The translations under genes were made by a program, and so were the position numbers. Of a stretch of DNA of 38,588 nucleotides, positions 2,315 to 17,677 are shown one piece after another. Origin of the DNA: a virus. How positions within the stretch are numbered: position 1 is the stretch's first letter; the number at the start of each line of letters is the position of its first letter. Location: the IMG/VR virus record IMGVR_UViG_3300011114_000525, positions 1 to 38,588 of that record, one strand, 5' to 3'. The notes under the pieces are model-generated. The model was not told where the DNA came from, ran no database searches, and saw nothing but the letters and a program-made list of their open reading frames with translations.

Positions 2315-3076
2315 ATGGCAGACCCAGTTGTACCAGAAGAAACAGTTGATCCAAACGCTGGATACGACACTGGTTTCACTTTTTCTACCCCTGTTCAAAC
2401 CGATTATAAACTGCGTTACCGCCCTGTATATGGTTTTGGCAAGGGCATTTCCGACACTGAAAAAGCAACCCTTGATCAACAAATTGTAAGAACCCCCAAA
2501 CAGGCAAGACAGTATAACGGCGCATATTTGGTTGACGATCAAGGATTTATTGCTCGCAAACCGTACGACCCAAACAAAGACGTTGAGGGGGAACTGTATG
2601 CGATGGATGACGCAACGCGAGCAACAACCCAGTCGTTGCTATATTCGAGAGGGTTTTATGGTTCTTCTAAACCATCCCGAACGGGAACCATGTCTGCCGA
2701 TAGGTCTGCGTTCAAAGAGTTTTTGAATTATGCCAATAGTGAGGGCTATACGTGGAAGCCGTTGCTTGCCAAAATTTCTGCTATGCCAATGGTAAAAGGT
2801 TTGGGGGGCGGATCAAAATATCGTGTTTCCGCTCCGGAAGATATTACCGAGTATTTGCGTAAGTCTTCTTTGGAGAAGTTGGGTCGCACAATGTCTAAAG
2901 AGGATGTGGATAAGGCGATTGCTGCTATTCAGCAGGTTGAGCGCACGAAGGGTCCTGGTGCGCCTGCGATGTCTGTGGCTGCTGCACAGCAGGTTTCTGC
3001 TGCTGATCCTGACCGTGAGAAATCTGTTCGATTCCGTCGTGGGATTGATATTGCTATGAATTTGTTGGGAGGCTGA
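2315..3076 (+). CDS. Putative virion/ejection-associated protein, 253 aa
   Basis: This gene starts 2 bp after the giant virion gene and is followed 1 bp later by the next, so it is translationally linked to both. The N-terminus is Pro/acidic and probably disordered (residues 1-25). The middle has a GFYGSS segment followed by a helical stretch (about 130-150), and the C-terminus is helical and Ala/Gln-rich, ending in RRGIDIAMNLLGG. I see no catalytic motif or membrane segment. Codon use becomes T- and G-ending toward the 3' end, as in the preceding gene. I do not recognise the family; position between portal and scaffold suggests a structural or internal virion protein. Confidence 0.65.
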   Translation: MADPVVPEETVDPNAGYDTGFTFSTPVQTDYKLRYRPVYGFGKGISDTEKATLDQQIVRTPKQARQYNGAYLVDDQGFIARKPYDPNKDVEGELYAMDDATRATTQSLLYSRGFYGSSKPSRTGTMSADRSAFKEFLNYANSEGYTWKPLLAKISAMPMVKGLGGGSKYRVSAPEDITEYLRKSSLEKLGRTMSKEDVDKAIAAIQQVERTKGPGAPAMSVAAAQQVSAADPDREKSVRFRRGIDIAMNLLGG

Positions 3077-3077
3077 T

Positions 3078-4598
3078 ATGGCTACCGAGTATCCAGAATA
3101 TGATTCTGTTGGTCTGATTGATGGTTTCAAAACTCTTACATCCCTTCAGAAAGAATTAACCAAACTTGAAGCGGACATTAAGAGGGGCTACAGGGATTTG
3201 ACTTTGGCGGAAACCAACCAACAAGGTTTGCCGTACCCATACAGGTTGCAACTGTCGCAATTTTCTCAACAAAGCACAGACGCTTTGGCAAAACAAAAAG
3301 ACATAGTTGCTAGACAGGTTGCATTGTCTTCGGTTTTGGAAGCCAAAGCAAAAAAATGGACTCCGCTTAGTGGGCCAGATTTGCCTATACAAAAAGAAGA
3401 AAGGCGCATTGTCGGTGTTTTGCTTGGCGCACCAGCCGCAACAACTGCTTCTGTTGTTCCCGCCAAAGCAGTGATTGGGTCAAAGGGTTTTGTCGGACCA
3501 CAGTTATCAGATGCGAATATACCTGTTGTTTCCAAAGAACAACCCCCCGCAGATGGTTCTAGTGATATCAAGAAGTTGTCGGCAGATCAAAAGACATTTG
3601 TTGATGCACAGATAACTGCACGGAAACTCAAAGACACACCAGCGAACCGTAAGTTGCTTCGTGCCGAATATCAGAAAACTGCCAAACCAGCCGACGATAT
3701 GGCGTGGATGGAGATATTCCGTAAGGACTATCCGTCGTATTCGGACTGGACAACAACAGAAGTTGTAAACCATTTCGGTCAAGATTTTATGGACATTTTG
3801 AATAATGTTTCCACGGGAACAATTGAGTATTCCGATGAGGAAATAAAGGCTTTACTTAAAAACACTAAATACTTTAATTCCATAACGGACAAGCAATACT
3901 TTTTTGATACTCAGCGCAAAAGCGTACAAGACGACCTTGTTGCCACTGCTCGCAGGTCGATCACCACCGACTACGCAGATGTCGGTTTGTCCGAAACCGA
4001 TCTGGCAGACCTATCAAAAACGGTTGCTCGATCAGGGTTAACTGGCACAGGGCTAAAGCAGGCTGTGTATCAGTATGCGTTTCGTCGTGCTGCTGCTGCA
4101 CCCACAGCGACGGATACGAAGATGGTGACCAACGTGTTGCAGGGTGCGGATGCTGATGCGATACGCCAATCCGCCCGTGCGTACGGGTATGCGGTGTCGG
4201 ATGCCGAGGTTCAGGCTGCTTTGACTGGTGGCATGTATAACGGTGTGGCTGTTTCTTCTGAGTCTATTTTGCAGAAAGCACAGAAAGCAGCAAAGGGTGC
4301 GTACGGGCATTTGTCGGACCAGATTGATGCTGGTTTATCGTTGTCAGATATTTTTGAAAACTATAAGCGGTATGCGGCGAATGTGTTGGAGTTGGATGAG
4401 TCGCAAATAGATTTCACCAAAGATCCTAAGTGGCAGTCTGCGTTTGGTACGAAGGAGTCTGGTCAAATGGGTTTGGGCGATTGGGTTACGAAACTGAAGT
4501 CGGATGAGTCGTTTGGTTGGCAGTTTACGAAGCAGGCTAATCAGCAGGCTACGGATATTGGTTTGACTTTGGCACGGGCGTTTGGAAAGGTTAAGTAA
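3078..4598 (+). CDS. Putative internal virion protein, 506 aa
   Basis: The ATG at 3078 follows the previous stop by 1 bp, and the stop overlaps the next ATG (TAATG at 4596). The first 110 residues are predicted coiled coil (SLQKELTKLEADIKR region). A Pro/Ala-rich linker follows (about 110-165), then a long helical C-terminal half with repeated small Ala-rich helices. No transmembrane segment or enzyme motif is seen. Size, helical content and membership of the portal-to-scaffold gene block resemble internal core proteins of short-tailed phages, but no sequence motif proves this. It is not a tape-measure protein by position, because it precedes the capsid gene. Confidence 0.65.
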   Translation: MATEYPEYDSVGLIDGFKTLTSLQKELTKLEADIKRGYRDLTLAETNQQGLPYPYRLQLSQFSQQSTDALAKQKDIVARQVALSSVLEAKAKKWTPLSGPDLPIQKEERRIVGVLLGAPAATTASVVPAKAVIGSKGFVGPQLSDANIPVVSKEQPPADGSSDIKKLSADQKTFVDAQITARKLKDTPANRKLLRAEYQKTAKPADDMAWMEIFRKDYPSYSDWTTTEVVNHFGQDFMDILNNVSTGTIEYSDEEIKALLKNTKYFNSITDKQYFFDTQRKSVQDDLVATARRSITTDYADVGLSETDLADLSKTVARSGLTGTGLKQAVYQYAFRRAAAAPTATDTKMVTNVLQGADADAIRQSARAYGYAVSDAEVQAALTGGMYNGVAVSSESILQKAQKAAKGAYGHLSDQIDAGLSLSDIFENYKRYAANVLELDESQIDFTKDPKWQSAFGTKESGQMGLGDWVTKLKSDESFGWQFTKQANQQATDIGLTLARAFGKVK

Positions 4599-6389: not shown

Positions 6390-7358
6390 GTGGCAGTTAC
6401 ACAAGCAAGTTCACTCAGTGTTGATCAGGCGGCGTACGACCGGTTAGCGTATTTCGCTCTCCGTTCAGAACTGTTGTTTGACCAAGCAGCAGATGTGCAA
6501 GCAACCAATCAGGCGATGCCTGGTTCTTCGGTTATCTTCACCATTTTCTCGGAAATGGCTGCGGCAACATCAACGATCAGCGAAACATCTGACCTCACCC
6601 CAGTAACAATGGCAGACAGCCAAGTGACTGTAACCCTTGCCGAATACGGTAACACGGTTAACACCACTGCAAAACTTCGTGGAACCTCGTTCCTTGATGT
6701 TGATGCTGTTGCAGCAAACTTGATTGGTTACAACGCTGGTAACAGCATCGATCAAGTTGTGTCAGCAGTTTTGGCTGGTGGAACAAACGTTGTTTACGGT
6801 GGTGGCGGTTCATCCGATCCAACAAGCACTGTAACCATTCAGGCTGAAGACATCGTTGAAGCCAACGACGTGCGCAAAGTTACAGCAGCACTTCGTTCAG
6901 CAAACGTAGCAACTTTCAACGGTTACTACATGGGCTACATTCACCCAGACGTTTCGTACGATCTCCGCAAGGAAACCGGCAACGCATCTTGGAATGCACC
7001 TCACGTCACCGTGGACACAGCGAACATCTACAACGGCGAAATCGGCACTTTTGAGTCGGTTCGTTTCATTGAGACACCTCGCGCGCCATTGGCTGCTAAC
7101 GCATCGAACGGTACCAGCACAACTGGTTTCATTGACGTGTACGGCACAATCATCATGGGTCGTCAGGCTTTGGCTAAGGCGTACTCACAGGTTGATGGCA
7201 ACGGCGTTGTTCCAAAGGTCGTTCGCGGTCCCGTGGTTGACTCGCTCATGCGTTTCAATCCGATTGGTTGGTACTGGCTTGGTGGCTACGGTCGTTTCCG
7301 TGAAGCCTCTTTGCGTCGTATTGATTCGTCGTCAAGCATTGGTTCAAACGCTTCCTAA
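6390..7358 (+). CDS. Major capsid protein (HK97-fold type)
   Basis: This 322-aa protein follows scaffold and precedes a strong terminator, as expected for the most expressed gene. The GTG start at 6390 has AAAGGA 6 bases upstream. The N-terminus (SLSVDQAAYDRLAYFALR) is helical, as in HK97-type N-arms. The centre carries MADSQVTVTLAEYGNTVNTT, a pattern typical of N4-gp56/P22-like coat subfamilies. It also has GYYMGYIHPDVSYDLRKE and a C-terminal IGWYWLGGYGRFREASLRRI. These are features of that coat group, so the assignment is confident though the subfamily is less sure. Codon use is strongly C-ending compared with neighbours, consistent with high expression. Confidence 0.88.
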   Translation: MAVTQASSLSVDQAAYDRLAYFALRSELLFDQAADVQATNQAMPGSSVIFTIFSEMAAATSTISETSDLTPVTMADSQVTVTLAEYGNTVNTTAKLRGTSFLDVDAVAANLIGYNAGNSIDQVVSAVLAGGTNVVYGGGGSSDPTSTVTIQAEDIVEANDVRKVTAALRSANVATFNGYYMGYIHPDVSYDLRKETGNASWNAPHVTVDTANIYNGEIGTFESVRFIETPRAPLAANASNGTSTTGFIDVYGTIIMGRQALAKAYSQVDGNGVVPKVVRGPVVDSLMRFNPIGWYWLGGYGRFREASLRRIDSSSSIGSNAS

Positions 7359-7464: not shown

Positions 7465-7833
7465 ATGTCTATTTCTAATTATGCCGAGTTAAAAATCTTG
7501 GATCACACAACTGGTAGAGCAGCGTGGACTATTCCTACGAACGTGTATGTCAAGTTGCACACGGCCGATCCTGGTGAGGCTGCAACATCTGCGGCTGCTA
7601 CAGAAACTACTCGTAAGGTTGCTGCGTGGGCTGTGGCTGCTTCGGGTGCGATTGCTACGTCGGCAACTTTGGAGTGGACTAACGTGGCTGCTACGGAAAC
7701 GTACACGCATTGGTCTATGTGGGATGCTTCTACGGCAGGTAATGCTTTGTGGACTGGTGCTTTGTCTACGTCTGCGGCTGTTACTGCTGGTGACACTTTT
7801 CAGATCACTACTCTCACGCTGTCTCTCGACTAG
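7465..7833 (+). CDS. Head decoration or minor tail protein (Gp80-like family)
   Basis: This 122-aa, Ala/Thr-rich, beta-strand protein has the pattern YVKLHTADPGEAATS near the N-terminus, LEWTNVAATETYTHWSMWDA in the middle and an AGDTF-plus-LSLD ending. The same order is seen in small phage proteins annotated as Gp80-like or LHTGDPG proteins of actinophages. The start has GAAAGG upstream, and a TATGAT -10-like box lies at 7439-7444. Position right after the coat gene fits a capsid decoration or head-tail protein. The exact role is unproven. Confidence 0.6.
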   Translation: MSISNYAELKILDHTTGRAAWTIPTNVYVKLHTADPGEAATSAAATETTRKVAAWAVAASGAIATSATLEWTNVAATETYTHWSMWDASTAGNALWTGALSTSAAVTAGDTFQITTLTLSLD

Positions 7834-7853: not shown

Positions 7854-8819
7854 ATGGCGCAAACAGCAGTCACAGGTTTTAGCGAACCGTTTGTTGATAC
7901 CCACCCGTTTTATCGGGGAACCTATTTTCGTGTTGTTGGTCGTACTGCTACTGGTTCTGGTAATGGTTCTGCTTCTGTTGCTCACACAAACTTTGAACAA
8001 AGGTTGGGTCAGTTAACTGACTTTAGTTTTCCGTTCCGTTTCGGTGGAAGATTTTATCTTGGTGTTCGTGCTGTTGTCACGGTTACTGCTACAGCATCAG
8101 GTTTGGGTGCTGAGTCGTCTGTTGAACAGGTGCTACGCCAACGTACCGCTACTGGTAGTGGTGTTGGTGATGCTGTTGTTATAACACTTACAATAGTAAT
8201 TCGTATTTCTACAGGTTCGGGTGTCGGGTCTGCGTCTGTCACAGGGCTACATGTTGCGCCTCGTACAGCGTCGGGTAGCGGTGTCGGGTCTGATACCACG
8301 GTCGGCAGTATTACGCCTGTTAGAACGGCTCAGGGGAGCGGCACAGGGGATTCTACGGTTGCGTTCATTCGTGTTCTTATTCGTACCGCTACAGGCTCAG
8401 GTGACGGGTCAGGTGACGGTGTTGATCTTGTTATCAACATTCGTACTGCGTCGGGTTCGGGAACGGGAACATCGACTGCGCTTGGCGGGATCCTATATTT
8501 CCGCACTGCCGAAGGTTCGGGAGTAGGCACAGATACCGCTGTTTGGGTGAAGTCACATATTTTCCGTGTCCCATACACGATCACCTATTCGCAAGGAACG
8601 TTCCGTGGTGAAGGCACAGCGAACCGTTTGCAGTCATATAACCGGCATGGTGTTCGAGCGTTAAACCTGTATCACCTCACAGATGACAGTTACACAACTG
8701 TTGAGCAGCGTGACGCAGGACAGATATTGAAATTGTGGCATGGTGGGCGTGACCATTTTTTGACTGATGCCGAAGTAACCGAATTGACCGCAGCAGGCTT
8801 TGGGGCTAGTATCACCTGA
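7854..8819 (+). CDS. Tail/surface protein with nine Thr-Ser-Gly repeats
   Basis: This 321-aa protein has about nine repeats with a period near 20-25 residues, each with the core R-T-A-x-G-S-G-x-G followed by a beta-strand (roughly residues 26-240; the first two are separated by a longer insert). The final 66 residues form a separate domain ending DAEVTELTAAGFGASIT, which is shared with the 98-aa protein at 9501-9797. The repeats are rich in Ser and Thr, the usual acceptors for O-glycosylation, and the next genes encode two glycosyltransferases. There is no signal peptide. It overlaps the next gene by one base. It is probably an elongated virion surface protein; glycosylation is inference. Confidence 0.7.
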   Translation: MAQTAVTGFSEPFVDTHPFYRGTYFRVVGRTATGSGNGSASVAHTNFEQRLGQLTDFSFPFRFGGRFYLGVRAVVTVTATASGLGAESSVEQVLRQRTATGSGVGDAVVITLTIVIRISTGSGVGSASVTGLHVAPRTASGSGVGSDTTVGSITPVRTAQGSGTGDSTVAFIRVLIRTATGSGDGSGDGVDLVINIRTASGSGTGTSTALGGILYFRTAEGSGVGTDTAVWVKSHIFRVPYTITYSQGTFRGEGTANRLQSYNRHGVRALNLYHLTDDSYTTVEQRDAGQILKLWHGGRDHFLTDAEVTELTAAGFGASIT

Positions 8820-9514
8820 TGATCGTTGAGGGATTAAGTATTGTTGTCGCTGTGTCAACCGAGTACTGGGGGCGGTTCGGTGATGGTTGGACTCAAAGTG
8901 TGTTGGCTCTTGAACCCAAACCTGAACATGTATTTATTGCTTCCGAGGAACCACTTGTTTTGCCCGATGGCTGGTTGCAGGTTCAGGCTGTGAAACCGTT
9001 AATTTGGGATGCGTTCACACAGGTAATATCTCAATCCCCAACCACCTATGCGATGTTGGTGAACATTGACGACAGGTTGCCCACAGATGCGTTAGATGAC
9101 CTTGTGTTGGAAGGTGACATTATTTGTTCTGCGATGATTGACACAGAAGGTGTGGTCAGTGTCCCTTGTCAAAAAAGGTATGAAAACATTGTGAACGCAT
9201 ACTGGTATCCGCTAATGGGATCAATCATTTTTCATCGAGATGTACTAAAGAAAATACCGTTCAGACCGACTGTGTGGATGGATTGGATTGCGGCATTTGA
9301 ATACAAAGCCCACAAGTTAGACATCAGATTCAACAAAAAAATACGGTACATCTACAACATTGAAGGAGAACGGCTGTCAAACCCCGCCGACCCCTCTGCG
9401 GCATTAAGCCAAGTTGCTATTATGAGGAACATGGTCAGACACGGTACGCCCCAACCAGGCAACGTATGGCCACCAGTTTTGATGGAAGGAAGTTACGCCG
9501 ATGAGCATATTTAG
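8819..9514 (+). CDS. Glycosyltransferase, GT-A fold (family 2-like)
   Basis: This 231-aa protein begins with a beta-strand of the GT-A type (LSIVVAVSTEYW). It has an acidic IDDR motif near residue 80 in the position of the nucleotide-sugar/metal-binding DxD, followed by conserved-looking hydrophobic strands and a WMDWIAAFEYKAHKLDIRF segment typical of the acceptor side. No transmembrane segment is present, so it acts in the cytoplasm. It overlaps the repeat-protein gene by one base and the 98-aa gene by 14 bases, so it is made together with both. The donor and acceptor cannot be read from the sequence; the adjacent Ser/Thr repeats are the obvious candidate. Confidence 0.65.
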   Translation: MIVEGLSIVVAVSTEYWGRFGDGWTQSVLALEPKPEHVFIASEEPLVLPDGWLQVQAVKPLIWDAFTQVISQSPTTYAMLVNIDDRLPTDALDDLVLEGDIICSAMIDTEGVVSVPCQKRYENIVNAYWYPLMGSIIFHRDVLKKIPFRPTVWMDWIAAFEYKAHKLDIRFNKKIRYIYNIEGERLSNPADPSAALSQVAIMRNMVRHGTPQPGNVWPPVLMEGSYADEHI

Positions 9515-9797
9515 AACACCAAGCGACAACTTTGTGACCCCACGGTTGGCAGAGTTCAACATCAAAGGTGATCGCCTATCCCAAGAACAACGCCTCGCCA
9601 ACAGGCTTGCCGTACATTACGCAGCCACCCCTAGAGGTCGTAACGTATTCCAGTTAACCAACCTGTCATACACAGAGAACCAACCATCAGACATGTCTAC
9701 TGTGATCAAAACCTATCTTGGTGGACACGACATTGAGGTGGATGCTACCGAGGTAGCATCGTTGACAGCAGCAGGATACGGGAGTTACATAACGTGA
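9501..9797 (+). CDS. Small protein with the TAAGxG C-terminal domain
   Basis: This 98-aa protein has residues 33-98 that align with the last 66 residues of the repeat protein at 7854-8819: both have ANRL, an LT-x2-SYT motif, I-x4-GG-x-D and an ending E-V-x2-LTAAG-x-G-x2-IT. The N-terminal 32 residues are different. The ATG at 9501 lies inside the end of the GT-A gene, and the stop overlaps the next GTG. The duplicated domain may be an anchoring or trimerisation unit for a virion protein, or a recognition tag for the glycosyltransferases. Both ideas are inference. Confidence 0.65.
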   Translation: MSIFRTPSDNFVTPRLAEFNIKGDRLSQEQRLANRLAVHYAATPRGRNVFQLTNLSYTENQPSDMSTVIKTYLGGHDIEVDATEVASLTAAGYGSYIT

Positions 9798-10078
9798 TCA
9801 AACATCAAGAGACACATCCAAACCTGGATGTTGAGGGTTGTTTCGGATGCAAAGTGTCGGCAGTCGGATTCAGCGCAGAACTTATGCCTACCCGTACTGG
9901 TTCTTCACGGTCGGCTGTGATTGCACAGAAAGATCGTGTGCTAGAAAAGGACTTGGCAGCATACAAACGTTTACGTGACGATGGTGTGCAACCAAAAAAC
10001 ATTGATGGTTCGGCAACGGTGGAAGCGAGAGCAAACGAAAAATGGCAGGTCGAAACAGGGATACTTCCAGACTTCTAA
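9794..10078 (+). CDS. Conserved small actinophage protein with CxxC motif, 94 aa
   Basis: It starts with GTG at 9794 overlapping the previous stop (GTGA). The N-terminus has HPNLDVEGCFGCKVSAVGFS, a pattern I associate with a small protein found near structural or glycosyltransferase genes in actinophages. The CxxC (residues 16-19) could bind a metal with other ligands, but only one pair is present. The second half is helical and Lys/Arg/Asp-rich (DRVLEKDLAAYKRLRDDG). It overlaps the GT-B gene by 37 bases. Function unknown. Confidence 0.6.
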   Translation: MIKHQETHPNLDVEGCFGCKVSAVGFSAELMPTRTGSSRSAVIAQKDRVLEKDLAAYKRLRDDGVQPKNIDGSATVEARANEKWQVETGILPDF

Positions 10079-11175
10079 ATCTTGTTGGGGTTGAAGAACC
10101 CAAGATTGGTTACGGCAAAATTGTTGAAGGGTTACGCAAAGCGTTATCTAATCAGGTAACACTTGACGAACAAGCAGAATCGGTGGTGTATGTGACTACA
10201 CCGAACATGGTTAAAGGCTGGTATCAGGGGCAGAAGGTTTCGTTTATTACGATGTGGGAAACAAACCAGTTGCCATCAAAGATCAAAGACTTTTTGCCGT
10301 ATGTGGACACAGTAATTGTTCCGTCTATGCACAACTTTGATTTGTTTTCACAGTTCCACAACAATGTTCACATGATCCCGTTGGGTGTTGACCGTGCAGT
10401 TTGGCGCACATCAGACGTTATTCCGCACGGCAAGTTCCGTATTTTGTGTGGTGGATCAGAGTGGCATCGTAAAGGTTTGGGTGTGGTGCTAGAGGTGTTT
10501 CAAAAGTTGGCGTTACCTGACGCAGAGTTGTGCATCAAAATTGTGCCACCGTACCTGTACGCGCCCGACCTGACGGGTATTCCCAATGTGACTGTTTACG
10601 ATAAATGGATGACCGAAACAGACGAAGCAGATTTGGTGCGTTCATGCGATCTGTTCGTGTCGGCTTCCCGTGGCGAAGGATTTGGTTTGATGCCGTTACA
10701 AGCAATCTCTGCTGGTGTTCCGGTGGTGTTAACAAACGCTCACGGTCATCGAGAGTTCGCTGATCTTGCGACGCACAGGATTTCTACAACAAGTGTGCCT
10801 TGTGAGAACGGGTTTTGGAGTGGGGCAGGCGATTGGGATGAACCGAACCGTGACGAGTTGGCTGCTGCGATTCTTGATGTGTATGACAACCGTGGCAAGT
10901 ATCGTCGTCAGGCAGCCCTGACATCGTTTGCGGTAGGGGCGTTTAACTGGCATACAGCAGCCGATCAACTGTTACAAATTGTTAAACCAACCAGCAACAC
11001 ACGGTCTGAGGTTTGGGTTCCGCTAGAGCCAACCTGCGAAATCGAGGTAACTAAACGGGTGCAGGCCGACATTGGTGGACACAGGGTTGAATTAGCCCCA
11101 GGGGTCAAACATCGTGTAGTGTTGAATGTACGTGACGTTCTATTCAAAGCAGGATTACTCAAATGGGATTGTTGA
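10042..11175 (+). CDS. Glycosyltransferase, GT-B fold, family 4-like
   Basis: This 377-aa protein has the GT4 layout. An N-terminal Rossmann half has a Gly-rich loop (EPKIGYGKIVEGL, residues 19-31). A linker holds VHMIPLGVD (near 109-117), and the C-terminal half has a WHRKG lysine (residue 144) and the donor-binding motif SRGEGFGLMPLQ (209-220), whose Glu is the retaining GT-B acid. The ATG at 10042 lies within the preceding gene; it gives a complete first beta-strand, so I keep it. The last about 70 residues (after 310) form a small beta domain not needed for catalysis. It is cytoplasmic and probably transfers a sugar to a virion protein or to the GT-A product. Confidence 0.8.
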   Translation: MAGRNRDTSRLLNLVGVEEPKIGYGKIVEGLRKALSNQVTLDEQAESVVYVTTPNMVKGWYQGQKVSFITMWETNQLPSKIKDFLPYVDTVIVPSMHNFDLFSQFHNNVHMIPLGVDRAVWRTSDVIPHGKFRILCGGSEWHRKGLGVVLEVFQKLALPDAELCIKIVPPYLYAPDLTGIPNVTVYDKWMTETDEADLVRSCDLFVSASRGEGFGLMPLQAISAGVPVVLTNAHGHREFADLATHRISTTSVPCENGFWSGAGDWDEPNRDELAAAILDVYDNRGKYRRQAALTSFAVGAFNWHTAADQLLQIVKPTSNTRSEVWVPLEPTCEIEVTKRVQADIGGHRVELAPGVKHRVVLNVRDVLFKAGLLKWDC

Positions 11176-11461: not shown

Positions 11462-12346
11462 ATGTCTACCGCTGGTGCGCTCATCAACAGGGTGTCACGG
11501 CAACTGTTATCTGGAACGATTGAGGAACGGAACAAGTTAGCAAGCACCGTTACATCGGCAGACACGTCTATTGTCATGTCTTATGACTTGGCTGGTTTGC
11601 GTGGTGGGTCAGTGTTTGAGATTGATTCGGAACTCATGTATGTCTGGGTTGCTGAATCAGGCAGTAAGACTTTGACTGTTGAGCGAGGCTATCTAGGTAC
11701 TACAGCAGCCGCGCATACGGCTGGCGCACTTGCCATTCTGAACCCTCGTTTTCCGCAGCAACAACTGTTGGATTCGTTCAACCAGGAACTAGATGATTTG
11801 TCTAGCCCATCTAACGGTTTGTTTCGGGTTGTGAACGCTGATCTGACCTACAACGGTTCTGACCGTCAACTAGACATCACCTCTGCTTCTACGGTGATTG
11901 ATTTGATTGATGTGCGCCTAAAGTATTTGGCTTCGGATTATCCGGTGTTGCGTGGGGTGAGGTTGTCACGGGATTTGCCTACAGCCGATTTTGCGTCAGG
12001 GTTTGCTATCACGTTTGATGAGTTGTCTATGGCGGGTACTTTGCGTGTTCGATATAAGGCACCGTTTGTTCGGGCTTCTACTACTGCGTCGGATATTCAG
12101 TCGGTTTGTTTGTTGCCTTTGACTATGGAAGACATTGTTGAGATGGGTGTGATGGCTCGTATGTTGGCTGTGCGTGAAGTGAAGCGTAACTTTATTGAGT
12201 CACAGGGTGATACTCGTAGATCGGATGAGGTTCCTGCTGGTTCTATGTCTAATTCGGTTACAAACATTTTGAGGTTGCGTCGTGATCGCATTATTGCTGA
12301 GGCTTCTAAGTTGGCTCGGCAATACCCGTTAACTATTAGGGTTTAA
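11462..12346 (+). CDS. Head-tail adaptor-like protein, 294 aa
   Basis: The ATG directly follows the previous stop. It begins with a helix (INRVSRQLLSG), then beta-rich sequence, VERGYLGTTAAAHTAGAL near residue 75, and a long helical C-terminus (EDIVEMGVMARMLAVREVKRNF). An N-terminal helical part joined to beta domains, in this genome position before a large beta-rich tail protein, resembles the adaptor (tail tubular A) of short-tailed phages. The VERGYLGTTAAAH segment is also found in other phage connector-region proteins. The assignment rests on position and architecture rather than on a diagnostic motif. Confidence 0.55.
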   Translation: MSTAGALINRVSRQLLSGTIEERNKLASTVTSADTSIVMSYDLAGLRGGSVFEIDSELMYVWVAESGSKTLTVERGYLGTTAAAHTAGALAILNPRFPQQQLLDSFNQELDDLSSPSNGLFRVVNADLTYNGSDRQLDITSASTVIDLIDVRLKYLASDYPVLRGVRLSRDLPTADFASGFAITFDELSMAGTLRVRYKAPFVRASTTASDIQSVCLLPLTMEDIVEMGVMARMLAVREVKRNFIESQGDTRRSDEVPAGSMSNSVTNILRLRRDRIIAEASKLARQYPLTIRV

Positions 12347-14199: not shown

Positions 14200-14706
14200 A
14201 TGGCTGCTGTAACTAGACGACAATACAAGGGTGCTGCGGCATCCACTACGACGACGAACTCGTTGACTTCTGTTGACACGTCGGTAACTTTGACTGCTAC
14301 TACAGGCTGGCCTTCTACGGCTGCTGTCCCGTTTTATGTGGTGATTGATCCAGGTACTTCGTCTGAGGAGAAGTGTTCGGTAACGATTTCGGGTTCTACG
14401 TTGACGTTGACTCGCGGGCAGGATGACACGACCGCTGTAGCACATAGTTCTGGTGCAACGATCTATCCGGTGTTCTCGGCTGACGATGCTGACGAGGCAA
14501 ACAACATGGCTGCGACGATGACGACTAAGGGTGACTTGTTGGTTACTACTGGGTCGGCGTTTAATCGTTTGGCTGTTGGTACTAACACTTATGTGCTTAC
14601 TGCTGATTCGGCAGCAACAAACGGTGTGGCGTGGGCTATTATTCCTACTCAGACACCAGATTTTTCTAGCGACCAAAATGTTTTAATAACACAAGTATTC
14701 GGATAA
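14200..14706 (+). CDS. Tail fibre protein, 168 aa
   Basis: The first two thirds are Thr/Ser-rich beta-strand, with VIDPGTSSEEKCSV and LTLTRGQDDTTAVAHSSGAT, a module common at phage fibre N-termini. The end has KGDLLVTTGSAFNRLAVGT followed by VLTADSAATNGVAWA, the well-known fibre motif that precedes adhesin domains. There is no signal peptide. It begins the group of four fibre-related genes that runs to 16189. The role, in host attachment at the tail tip, is supported by the motif. Confidence 0.75.
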   Translation: MAAVTRRQYKGAAASTTTTNSLTSVDTSVTLTATTGWPSTAAVPFYVVIDPGTSSEEKCSVTISGSTLTLTRGQDDTTAVAHSSGATIYPVFSADDADEANNMAATMTTKGDLLVTTGSAFNRLAVGTNTYVLTADSAATNGVAWAIIPTQTPDFSSDQNVLITQVFG

Positions 14707-15095: not shown

Positions 15096-15974
15096 ATGAC
15101 TAGGTACGCACAGCGCACACTTATACAGCAGGGTACGGTTGCTAATTGGGGTAAGGCTGCACCTGCTGGTATCGGTGTAGTGAACGGTTACGGTGTTGCA
15201 ACAGGTGGAACAAGTTATCCTGTGACAGTCAGTTCTATCGCTTACACTTTGTTGGCGTTCACAGCAGATGCAAACCTTGTTGTTTCTACTGCTGGTTTGT
15301 TTGATGTCTTGCTTGTTGGTGGAGGTGGAGGCAGTGGCAGTGGCACTTACGGTGGTGGTGGTGGGGGTGGTGGAGGAGTTATTGGTATTCAGGCAACACA
15401 AACAATTTATTTGACTGCTGCAACTTACGCAGTTGATGTCGGCGCAGGTGGAGCAACAGAACTTGTTGGATTGAATAGTGCTATTGGCTCTGTGGTCGCA
15501 GTCTGTGGTGGTGGATTTGGTGGCACAACTGGAGCGTTGCAACCTCGTGGTTCGGGTGGTGGTTCAGGTGGTGGTGGTTCAGATAATAGAATAGGTAGCA
15601 GGTCGGTATTCCTTCTTGGTGGATTTGATGGTGGTAACGCATCGGCTGCTTCAAACTCTCCAGGGGCAGGTGGAGGTGGTGCTGATGGTGCTGGTGGAAA
15701 CTCAACAGCAAATACAAATGGTGGTGCAGGTGGAAACGGCAAAGATATTTATCCGTTTGTCAACTCAGTATCTGTGCTAACTAATCCTTACTACGCTGCT
15801 GCTGGTGGTGGTGGTGGTTACACGGGAACAGTCGGTACGGCTGGCAACGGTGGCGTTGCAGGTTCTACTGGTACAGGCATTGCTGGAGTAAATTATGGTG
15901 CAGGTGCAGGTGGTGGAGTGACTGCTGGTAATGCTGGTGCTGCTGGTCTTGTATTGGTGAGGTTCAAAGTATGA
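15096..15974 (+). CDS. Glycine-rich tail fibre adhesin
   Basis: This 292-aa protein starts MTRYAQRTL and has a short beta domain. From residue 75 it becomes a glycine-rich domain with LLVGGGGGSGSGTYGGGGGG, AVDVGAGGA and several later GGGGG and GAGGGG runs, ending GAAGLVLVRFKV. This order is typical of the phage Gly-rich adhesin domain, in which polyglycine-II helices carry variable loops that bind the host surface. Its long open reading frames on the other strand are by-products of the Gly codons. Likely the receptor-binding protein. Confidence 0.75.
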   Translation: MTRYAQRTLIQQGTVANWGKAAPAGIGVVNGYGVATGGTSYPVTVSSIAYTLLAFTADANLVVSTAGLFDVLLVGGGGGSGSGTYGGGGGGGGGVIGIQATQTIYLTAATYAVDVGAGGATELVGLNSAIGSVVAVCGGGFGGTTGALQPRGSGGGSGGGGSDNRIGSRSVFLLGGFDGGNASAASNSPGAGGGGADGAGGNSTANTNGGAGGNGKDIYPFVNSVSVLTNPYYAAAGGGGGYTGTVGTAGNGGVAGSTGTGIAGVNYGAGAGGGVTAGNAGAAGLVLVRFKV

Positions 15975-16189: not shown

Positions 16190-17677
16190 GTGCGTGGGTC
16201 ACGCTGGCTGATATTTGCGCCTGTAGCAATACTCGCACTGTTCGCACCACAAGCCAACGCTGAACCTGTAGCGGGGCTACAAACACGGTACTTCATTATT
16301 GATGAAGTACCACCTACACGGGCAGACAACATCTATACCGAATGTGGTAGTGAAGTGGAAAACAACATCAACCGTTCGTATGACGGTGAACCATATTTAG
16401 ATTGCACTAACGATTTGTTTATGGTGCATATGACAGGGTTTATTACGATCCCTGAACACAACACCATAGAGTTTTGGTTGGCTTCTGATGATGGTGGCAC
16501 AATCAACATTGATGGGAACGAGTGGGGCAACTGGTGGGACCAGGGTTGTTCAGCCACCGAATCGGGACAGATAGACATTAGTGCAGGCAGCCAGCCACTA
16601 GACCTTTGGATGTATGAGAACGGCGGGGGAACGTGTCTAATGCTTGCATGGAACATTGACAACACGGGTTGGGTAATCGTGCCTGACGAAGCGTTCACTA
16701 CTACAGTATCGGTTACGACCACAACCGATAGTCCAGTAACAACTATTCAGGAGACAACAACCTCATGGGAATCTACAACAACATCCACGACAACCACGAC
16801 ATCAACGACGACCACTTCTACTATTGCACCCTCTACGACTGTGCCTGTAACAAACCCCTCGACTACTACGACACCTCAAACAATTTATATACCCCCACCA
16901 GAACCAACAATGCCAGACCCGCCAGCAACGGTTCCTCTACCACAAATAGAGCCGCCAGCCATCCCAGAGATACCAGACCTTCCACCAGAGATTGAAACAA
17001 TCCCACCAGAAACATTAAATCTCCCTCCCGAAATTGTAGACACAATGCCCGACGTTGTGGACACATACCCTACTGTTGAGCCACCCGATACCCTACCGTT
17101 TGTCGGACTACTACCCGACCCACCCGACACTATGCCTCTGCCATCAGACACCCTCCCAGACGCACCAGAAACGCTTGACACGCTCCCAATAGAAGTAATC
17201 GCCGAATTACCACCCGAACTCGTAGAAGCCCTCCTAGACGCTGGCGACAGTGAAGTACCCCTCACCGAAGAACAGTTCACTGCCGTTGTGGACACAATCG
17301 CAGACCTAGCCCCCGAAGAAGCAGTAGCACTAATAACTCAAATCCTTGCTACCGCGGTAACACCAGACCAAGCCGAAGCCCTAGCCACCAACCCTGACGT
17401 GTTGGCTGTCATCACCGAAGAACAAGCCACAGAAATCTTTGAAACCATAGATGTAACCGAATTAGATAACACCCAGATAGCCGAACTCACAGCAGCAATC
17501 CAGGGCGCACCCCTCAAAGTCCAAAAAGCCTTCGAAAAAACTATTGACATTTTCGGCGGATTTGACGACTACGTACCAACAGGCTCCAACATTCCTGTAG
17601 GAGAACGACGAACACTCATCGCCATCGCAGCAGGAACAACCCTCACAGCAGCAAGTAGTAAGATAAAAAGGAAATGA
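16190..17677 (+). CDS. Secreted PA14-like protein with Thr-rich and Pro-rich stalk
   Basis: This is a 495-aa protein with a GTG start. Residues 1-24 form a signal peptide (hydrophobic core IFAPVAILALFA, cut near ANA-EP). Residues 28-165 look like a PA14/GLEYA sugar-binding domain: GLQTRYF, a FWLASDDGGTINIDG motif with the Asp-Asp pair, and an ending LMLAWNID. Residues 170-225 are a mucin-like run of Thr, Ser and Val, followed by a Pro-rich stalk (230-335), a helical acidic region and a weakly hydrophobic C-terminus ending KIKRK. It lies between fibre and lysis genes and overlaps the next gene by 4 bases. A surface-displayed or virion-attached lectin is possible; the signal peptide is odd for a fibre. 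Confidence 0.7.
   Translation: MRGSRWLIFAPVAILALFAPQANAEPVAGLQTRYFIIDEVPPTRADNIYTECGSEVENNINRSYDGEPYLDCTNDLFMVHMTGFITIPEHNTIEFWLASDDGGTINIDGNEWGNWWDQGCSATESGQIDISAGSQPLDLWMYENGGGTCLMLAWNIDNTGWVIVPDEAFTTTVSVTTTTDSPVTTIQETTTSWESTTTSTTTTTSTTTTSTIAPSTTVPVTNPSTTTTPQTIYIPPPEPTMPDPPATVPLPQIEPPAIPEIPDLPPEIETIPPETLNLPPEIVDTMPDVVDTYPTVEPPDTLPFVGLLPDPPDTMPLPSDTLPDAPETLDTLPIEVIAELPPELVEALLDAGDSEVPLTEEQFTAVVDTIADLAPEEAVALITQILATAVTPDQAEALATNPDVLAVITEEQATEIFETIDVTELDNTQIAELTAAIQGAPLKVQKAFEKTIDIFGGFDDYVPTGSNIPVGERRTLIAIAAGTTLTAASSKIKRK

Follow-up and report, generated by a model that had tools for sequence, protein, structure and literature searches.

Accessory glycosyltransferases in a putative exchangeable neck-fibre locus of an aquatic actinophage podovirus

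Introduction

The Planktophila phages LanE43AprE7 and LanE43AprF5 (E7 and F5) and the G2/G3 freshwater actinophages have genomes of similar size (39 kb), carry a glycosyltransferase (GT) and have an actinobacterial host with WhiB (PMC10202952). In these respects they resemble the phage described here, which is represented by the 38.6-kb IMG/VR virus record IMGVR_UViG_3300011114_000525 (positions 1 to 38,588, the whole stretch being referred to as the window). The subject of this work is its locus between the major capsid gene and the gene of a putative head-tail adaptor, where a protein with Thr/Ser/Gly repeats (the repeat protein) is encoded beside two GT-like genes. The locus contains the following genes; relatives are designated by L and a number.

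6390..7358, + strand: major capsid protein, the anchor of the locus (PF13252 5.9e-50; 43% identity to the Streptomyces Beephvirinae capsid)
7465..7833, + strand: gp80-like protein, putatively of the neck or whisker (PF23140 1.1e-29; PDB 8jou (GP4) 6.5e-11 and 9c39 (Sf14 neck) 1.8e-4)
7854..8819, + strand: repeat protein, 321 aa, putatively the shaft of a neck fibre or whisker with a C-terminal domain (phrog_23524 1.3e-99; 61-sequence alignment)
8819..9514, + strand: GT-A-like glycosyltransferase, probable, inserted precisely at the junction of the repeat protein and the small paralogue, a position otherwise seen only in the L062 group
9501..9797, + strand: small paralogue of the C-terminal domain of the repeat protein, kept in most relatives and also in phages that lack the repeat protein
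9794..10078, + strand: small CxxC protein (phrog_24600 1.3e-32; homologues in Beephvirinae, E7 and F5), found in nearly all loci
10042..11175, + strand: GT4-like (GT-B) glycosyltransferase, accessory (PF00534 6.1e-13; phrog_2170 3.3e-27)
11462..12346, + strand: conserved structural protein bounding the locus, putative head-tail adaptor (phrog_7578 1.3e-95; Beephvirinae homologue 2.7e-24)

The capsid, small paralogue, CxxC, adaptor-like and nozzle-like profiles of the window all match E7 and F5, whereas the gp80 and GT-B profiles are unmatched there and the repeat-protein profile matches only the small paralogue; in addition, the GT2 gene of E7 and F5 follows the Gly-rich fibre genes and precedes the nozzle-like one. 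The Streptomyces Beephvirinae podophages Immanuel3 and Zeigle have homologous capsid, CxxC, adaptor-like, nozzle-like and fibre genes in a related order, but the slot is occupied by a gene annotated as tailspike/minor tail protein, PF00535 is unmatched in their records and GT annotation is absent in the regions viewed. The gp80-like protein is sequence-related to chains of the two PDB entries listed above, which represent gp80 of GP4 and the gp30/gp31 neck whiskers of Shigella phage Sf14; the latter are built from two neighbouring gene products, whereas a sequence comparison of the repeat protein with PDB chains gave no convincing match. Phage-encoded GTs occur also in the mycobacteriophages Che8 and Rita, for which PMC11256854 cites the capsid as the reported acceptor. 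On the comparison of relatives presented here, the locus as a whole is probably best explained as an exchangeable neck-fibre locus that carries accessory GTs.

Linkage of the gp80-like gene and the repeat protein

Relatives were collected from IMG/VR in searches with four query proteins (repeat protein, small paralogue, GT-A and the structural protein downstream), which yielded loci up to L207. Of these, 128 (window included) span the region from the capsid to the downstream structural gene, and were dereplicated to 71 cassettes. A subset of 37 cassettes was reached via the downstream structural gene and hence not selected for the repeat protein, while the remaining sample is query-biased; all association tests ignore shared ancestry. 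The gp80-like gene and the repeat protein occurred together in 60 of the 71 cassettes, were both missing from 11 and were never found apart, and the same was seen in the 37-cassette subset (both in 26, neither in 11; Fisher p 1e-9). Loci devoid of the two genes still have the CxxC gene and encode the C-terminal-domain protein, as do E7 and F5.

The gp80-like protein scored 103.8 bits against PF23140 (podophage GP4 fibre I; curated cut-off, 27). Since its relatives are found in the solved GP4 and Sf14 structures, and the Sf14 neck bears two-protein whiskers, we read the gp80-like protein and the repeat protein as a putative neck whisker. The originally predicted elongated repeat protein is supported, and it lies in the structural operon.

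Homologues of a tail-fibre-like protein of the window (14200-14706) were observed between gp80 and the repeat protein in L072 (4614-5480) and L176 (4212-5129). The window also encodes a Gly_rich_2-type fibre protein at 15096-15974, and a related glycine-rich cluster lies within the capsid-to-adaptor slot of L178, L165, L152 and L082, which suggests that fibre genes move between two loci.

Glycosyltransferases vary independently of the fibre

The presence of GT genes was independent of the repeat protein. At least one GT was found in 48/60 cassettes with the repeat protein versus 10/11 without it, and no association was detected in the 37-cassette subset (p 0.65). In the 12 repeat-protein cassettes devoid of a GT, a search of the whole records found neither Glycos_transf_1 nor Glycos_transf_2, although only two of these records reach about 41 kb and the others are shorter and maybe incomplete. 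The GT-B tree interleaves the enzymes of phages that have the repeat protein with those of phages that lack it. GT-A-type genes were, if anything, commoner in cassettes lacking the repeat protein (7/11 vs 9/60, p 0.002, relatedness ignored).

Two natural pairs illustrate this independence. L163 and L011 share the capsid (98% identity), scaffold (97%), CxxC protein (96%) and GT-B (99%), while L163 encodes a 1014-aa collagen-like fibre and a different small paralogue in the place where L011 has gp80 and the repeat protein. Reciprocally, L061 and L111 are 83-93% identical in gp80, repeat protein, paralogue and CxxC protein, with GT-B missing. A dedicated module would have the transferases occur only with the repeat acceptor and vice versa, and the original prediction had named transferases without the repeat protein in close relatives as the outcome that would contradict it; L163 and L011 present exactly this outcome, and the GT-less repeat loci contradict the reverse. 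A further expectation, co-variation of repeat number with transferase presence, was not borne out (p = 0.17), and the Ser/Thr fraction was higher in repeat proteins from loci without a GT (0.349) than in those with one (0.303, p 0.003).

These data bear directly on the explanation that the locus is a dedicated module whose two transferases attach O-linked sugars to the repeat protein at its Ser/Thr repeats. It would agree with the adjacency and overlapping frames of the genes, with the Thr/Ser/Gly-rich repeats and with a GT in most repeat-protein loci (48 of 60). However, it is at odds with the nearly identical GT-B in a phage lacking the repeat protein, with the 12 GT-less loci and their Ser/Thr-richer repeats, and with L211, a short contig binned in a Micrococcales metagenome-assembled genome (MAG): besides a weakly matching gp80-like protein, it encodes a repeat protein whose C-terminal domain is related and whose repeats are quite different, and the GT-A and GT-B profiles are unmatched in it. 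We consider this explanation quite improbable.

The L163/L011 pair also bears on which protein may receive the sugar. The GTs may glycosylate a virion protein common to all members, such as the capsid, the CxxC protein or the small paralogue, with the fibre as a bystander, which would be a specific form of the exchangeable-locus explanation. The capsid and the CxxC protein are among the proteins that L163 and L011 share along with GT-B, and because the capsid is common to this pair and capsid glycosylation is reported in mycobacteriophages, as cited in PMC11256854, the capsid is a candidate acceptor. All three proteins, however, are candidates only, and we give this specific form somewhat less than an even chance.

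The GT genes were also found to be exchanged in position and allele. L144 reads straight through the repeat/paralogue junction at the same TGATG at which this phage carries GT-A, whereas GT-A homologues in L133/L134, L057 and L181 are located between the CxxC and GT-B genes instead; other relatives have unrelated GT2 genes in that slot. This phage and L062 share GT-A (98%) and GT-B (94%) and differ in repeat-protein type. L144, with 97% capsid identity almost as close to this phage as L062, has a GT-B of 68% identity and no GT-A, which suggests that the GT pair was exchanged together. L062 and L144 in turn have the same 251-residue repeat-protein type with different GTs, and the 321-residue type of this phage occurs also in L150 and L026 with other GT-B alleles. 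Thus, repeat-protein type and GT allele assort freely. An obligate pairing of GT-A with GT-B was considered and rejected, as 42 of 56 GT-B loci have no GT-A-type gene. Fibre and GTs thus come and go independently; the exchangeable locus makes them neighbours, not parts of a single machine dedicated to sugar coating.

Besides these genes, L180 carries at 3065-3550 a CTP-transferase-like gene (PF01467 2.5e-17) beside its GT genes, possibly encoding a donor-sugar enzyme.

Structure and modular exchange of the repeat protein

The repeat protein consists of two main parts.

7941..8540, + strand: repeat region, residues 30-229, 8 motif copies (predicted local distance difference test, pLDDT, <50 in the monomer model)
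8556..8816, + strand: C-terminal domain, residues 235-321, common to the small paralogue, mostly of high pLDDT and the best-conserved part

The original prediction counted about nine RTAxGSGxG repeats. The repeats are real, with shuffled versions of the protein giving a mean of 0.0026 motif matches and a maximum of 1 in 20,000 shuffles, and their number was corrected to 7 strict or 8 loose copies, mostly with a 20-aa (60-nt) period over residues 97-217. The copies are 62-78% alike at the DNA level (22-38% of positions differ) with the motif retained, which argues for selection at the protein level rather than a fresh duplication. On average, the C-terminal domain is better conserved (0.69) than the N-terminus (0.53). 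DNA similarity of the repeat gene of L144 and L062 to the window resumes only from 8439 on, so that the N-terminal part and most repeats have been exchanged while the C-terminal part stays. The small paralogue had been assigned to the GT-A gene; it is a paralogue not of GT-A but of the C-terminal domain of the repeat protein, matching phrog_23524 at positions 274-342. L161, L059, L162 and L166 lack both the small paralogue and any GT, and all GT-positive cassettes have a small paralogue, a pattern that may reflect one clade.

Judged from sequence, we favour a structural role of the repeats, with which sugar on the repeats would still be compatible. The model of the repeat protein matched in BFVD, at useful E-values, only unnamed or uncharacterised viral proteins, and protein searches of phage records with the repeat protein and the GT-A protein gave no matches. 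A PDB profile match of the repeats to designed helical proteins (E about 0.02) was judged to be due to chance.

Identity of the two glycosyltransferases

Of the two glycosyltransferases originally proposed, GT-B is secure by its sequence as a clear GT4 enzyme, scoring 49.1 bits against Glycos_transf_1 (cut-off 26.4). In 49 of 56 relatives, the GT4 EX7E motif takes the form EX7Q (EGFGLMPLQ or close variants), with 7 outside the pattern used.

The GT-A assignment of 8819-9514 is probable. The window protein itself is unmatched in Pfam and PHROG, and its homologue in L133 matches PF00535 weakly (4.6e-4; 20.6 bits, below the curated cut-off of 23.3). The five homologues share an invariant Asp-Asp motif (D84-D85) and 44 invariant positions, and the low-confidence model (pLDDT 47) aligns to ArnC/GtrB/EXTL2 with Z about 9.5-9.6. 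The lack of a Pfam match and the low-confidence model would suit a decayed or repurposed relative that is no active transferase; nevertheless, the open frame, the invariant residues among the homologues and the 98% identity in L062 make this very improbable.

Phage affiliation and neighbouring features

The actinophage origin originally assigned was supported by the structural block shared with E7 and F5 and by a WhiB gene, WhiB being treated as an actinophage marker (PMC10202952).

24193..24396, + strand: WhiB domain, marker of an actinobacterial host (PF02467 4.4e-21)

Three actinobacterial MAG contigs carry related capsid genes, and a DNA search of phage records gave no match. The phage belongs with the podoviruses of aquatic actinobacteria, as distant kin of the cultured E7 and F5 and of the Streptomyces Beephvirinae.

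The five genes from the repeat protein to GT-B, predicted to lie in overlapping frames, all exist, with overlaps of 1 nt between the repeat protein and GT-A (TGATG), 14 nt between GT-A and the paralogue, 4 nt between the paralogue and the CxxC gene and 37 nt between the CxxC gene and GT-B. None of seven proteins scored above the cut-off in NCBIfam, PDB profile searches with the adaptor-like and nozzle-like proteins gave nothing credible, and a tRNA gene search found none.

Discussion

Collectively, the comparison suggests a locus that would act as an exchangeable region for adsorption structures between the capsid gene and the putative adaptor gene. The gp80-like protein would form the base of a neck whisker and the repeat protein its rod-like shaft, with the Thr/Ser/Gly repeats serving mainly as a structural, beta-rich fibre and the conserved folded domain common to the small paralogue forming its end, either as the docking point on the virion or as the tip. 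The two GTs are accessory genes that enter, leave and are swapped within the same locus regardless of the fibre. Of the virion glycosylation proposed originally, what finds no support is a dedicated module modifying the Ser/Thr repeats; by analogy, transfer of sugars onto a virion surface protein, not necessarily the repeats, would still be the likeliest and most plausible use of such enzymes, and it is possible that they modify whichever fibre is present. At 16190-17677, directly 5' of lysis-type genes, the window encodes a further protein of 495 aa, which begins with a signal-peptide-like segment and combines a PA14 domain (PF07691 1e-5) with a Thr-rich mucin-like linker and a Pro-rich stretch. 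It resembles a secreted glycoprotein of actinobacteria, and as an acceptor of O-glycans it is more typical than the repeat protein.

Several points weigh against this reading. A PDB fold search with the monomer model of the repeat protein gave no match and the repeat region appeared unfolded, so that the fibre shape and location proposed for it rest on gene linkage. The contigs are metagenome assemblies in which chimeras are possible, yet the pattern recurs in several independent contigs. No virion proteomics for this phage group was found, and sugars of the host surface, instead of the virion, could be the target of the GTs. Modification of host surface glycans or of phage DNA, conferring superinfection exclusion or nuclease protection, has been proposed for the GTs of E7 and F5 (PMC10202952); here, the GT genes lie inside a structural operon beside fibre genes in many relatives, and no base-modification gene was noticed in the window, and we therefore regard this alternative as unlikely.

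Little is known about the phages of abundant aquatic actinobacteria, and DNA protection or superinfection exclusion is the explanation that has been given for the GTs of the cultured ones. The exchangeable neck-fibre locus proposed here places fibre exchange at a defined site and separates the fibre from the transferases, and natural pairs with the same capsid and GT and a different fibre, or with the same fibre and no GT, would make phage GT function directly testable. As a tentative suggestion, less likely to hold than not to, two surface traits may change independently, namely the neck fibre, which is gp80 with the repeat protein, a collagen-like fibre or absent, and the sugar coat, for which GT-A, GT-B, GT2 and CTP-transferase genes form a swappable set. 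The change would occur by recombination in one locus, which would give the phage a combinatorial 'serotype' against microdiverse actinobacterial hosts.

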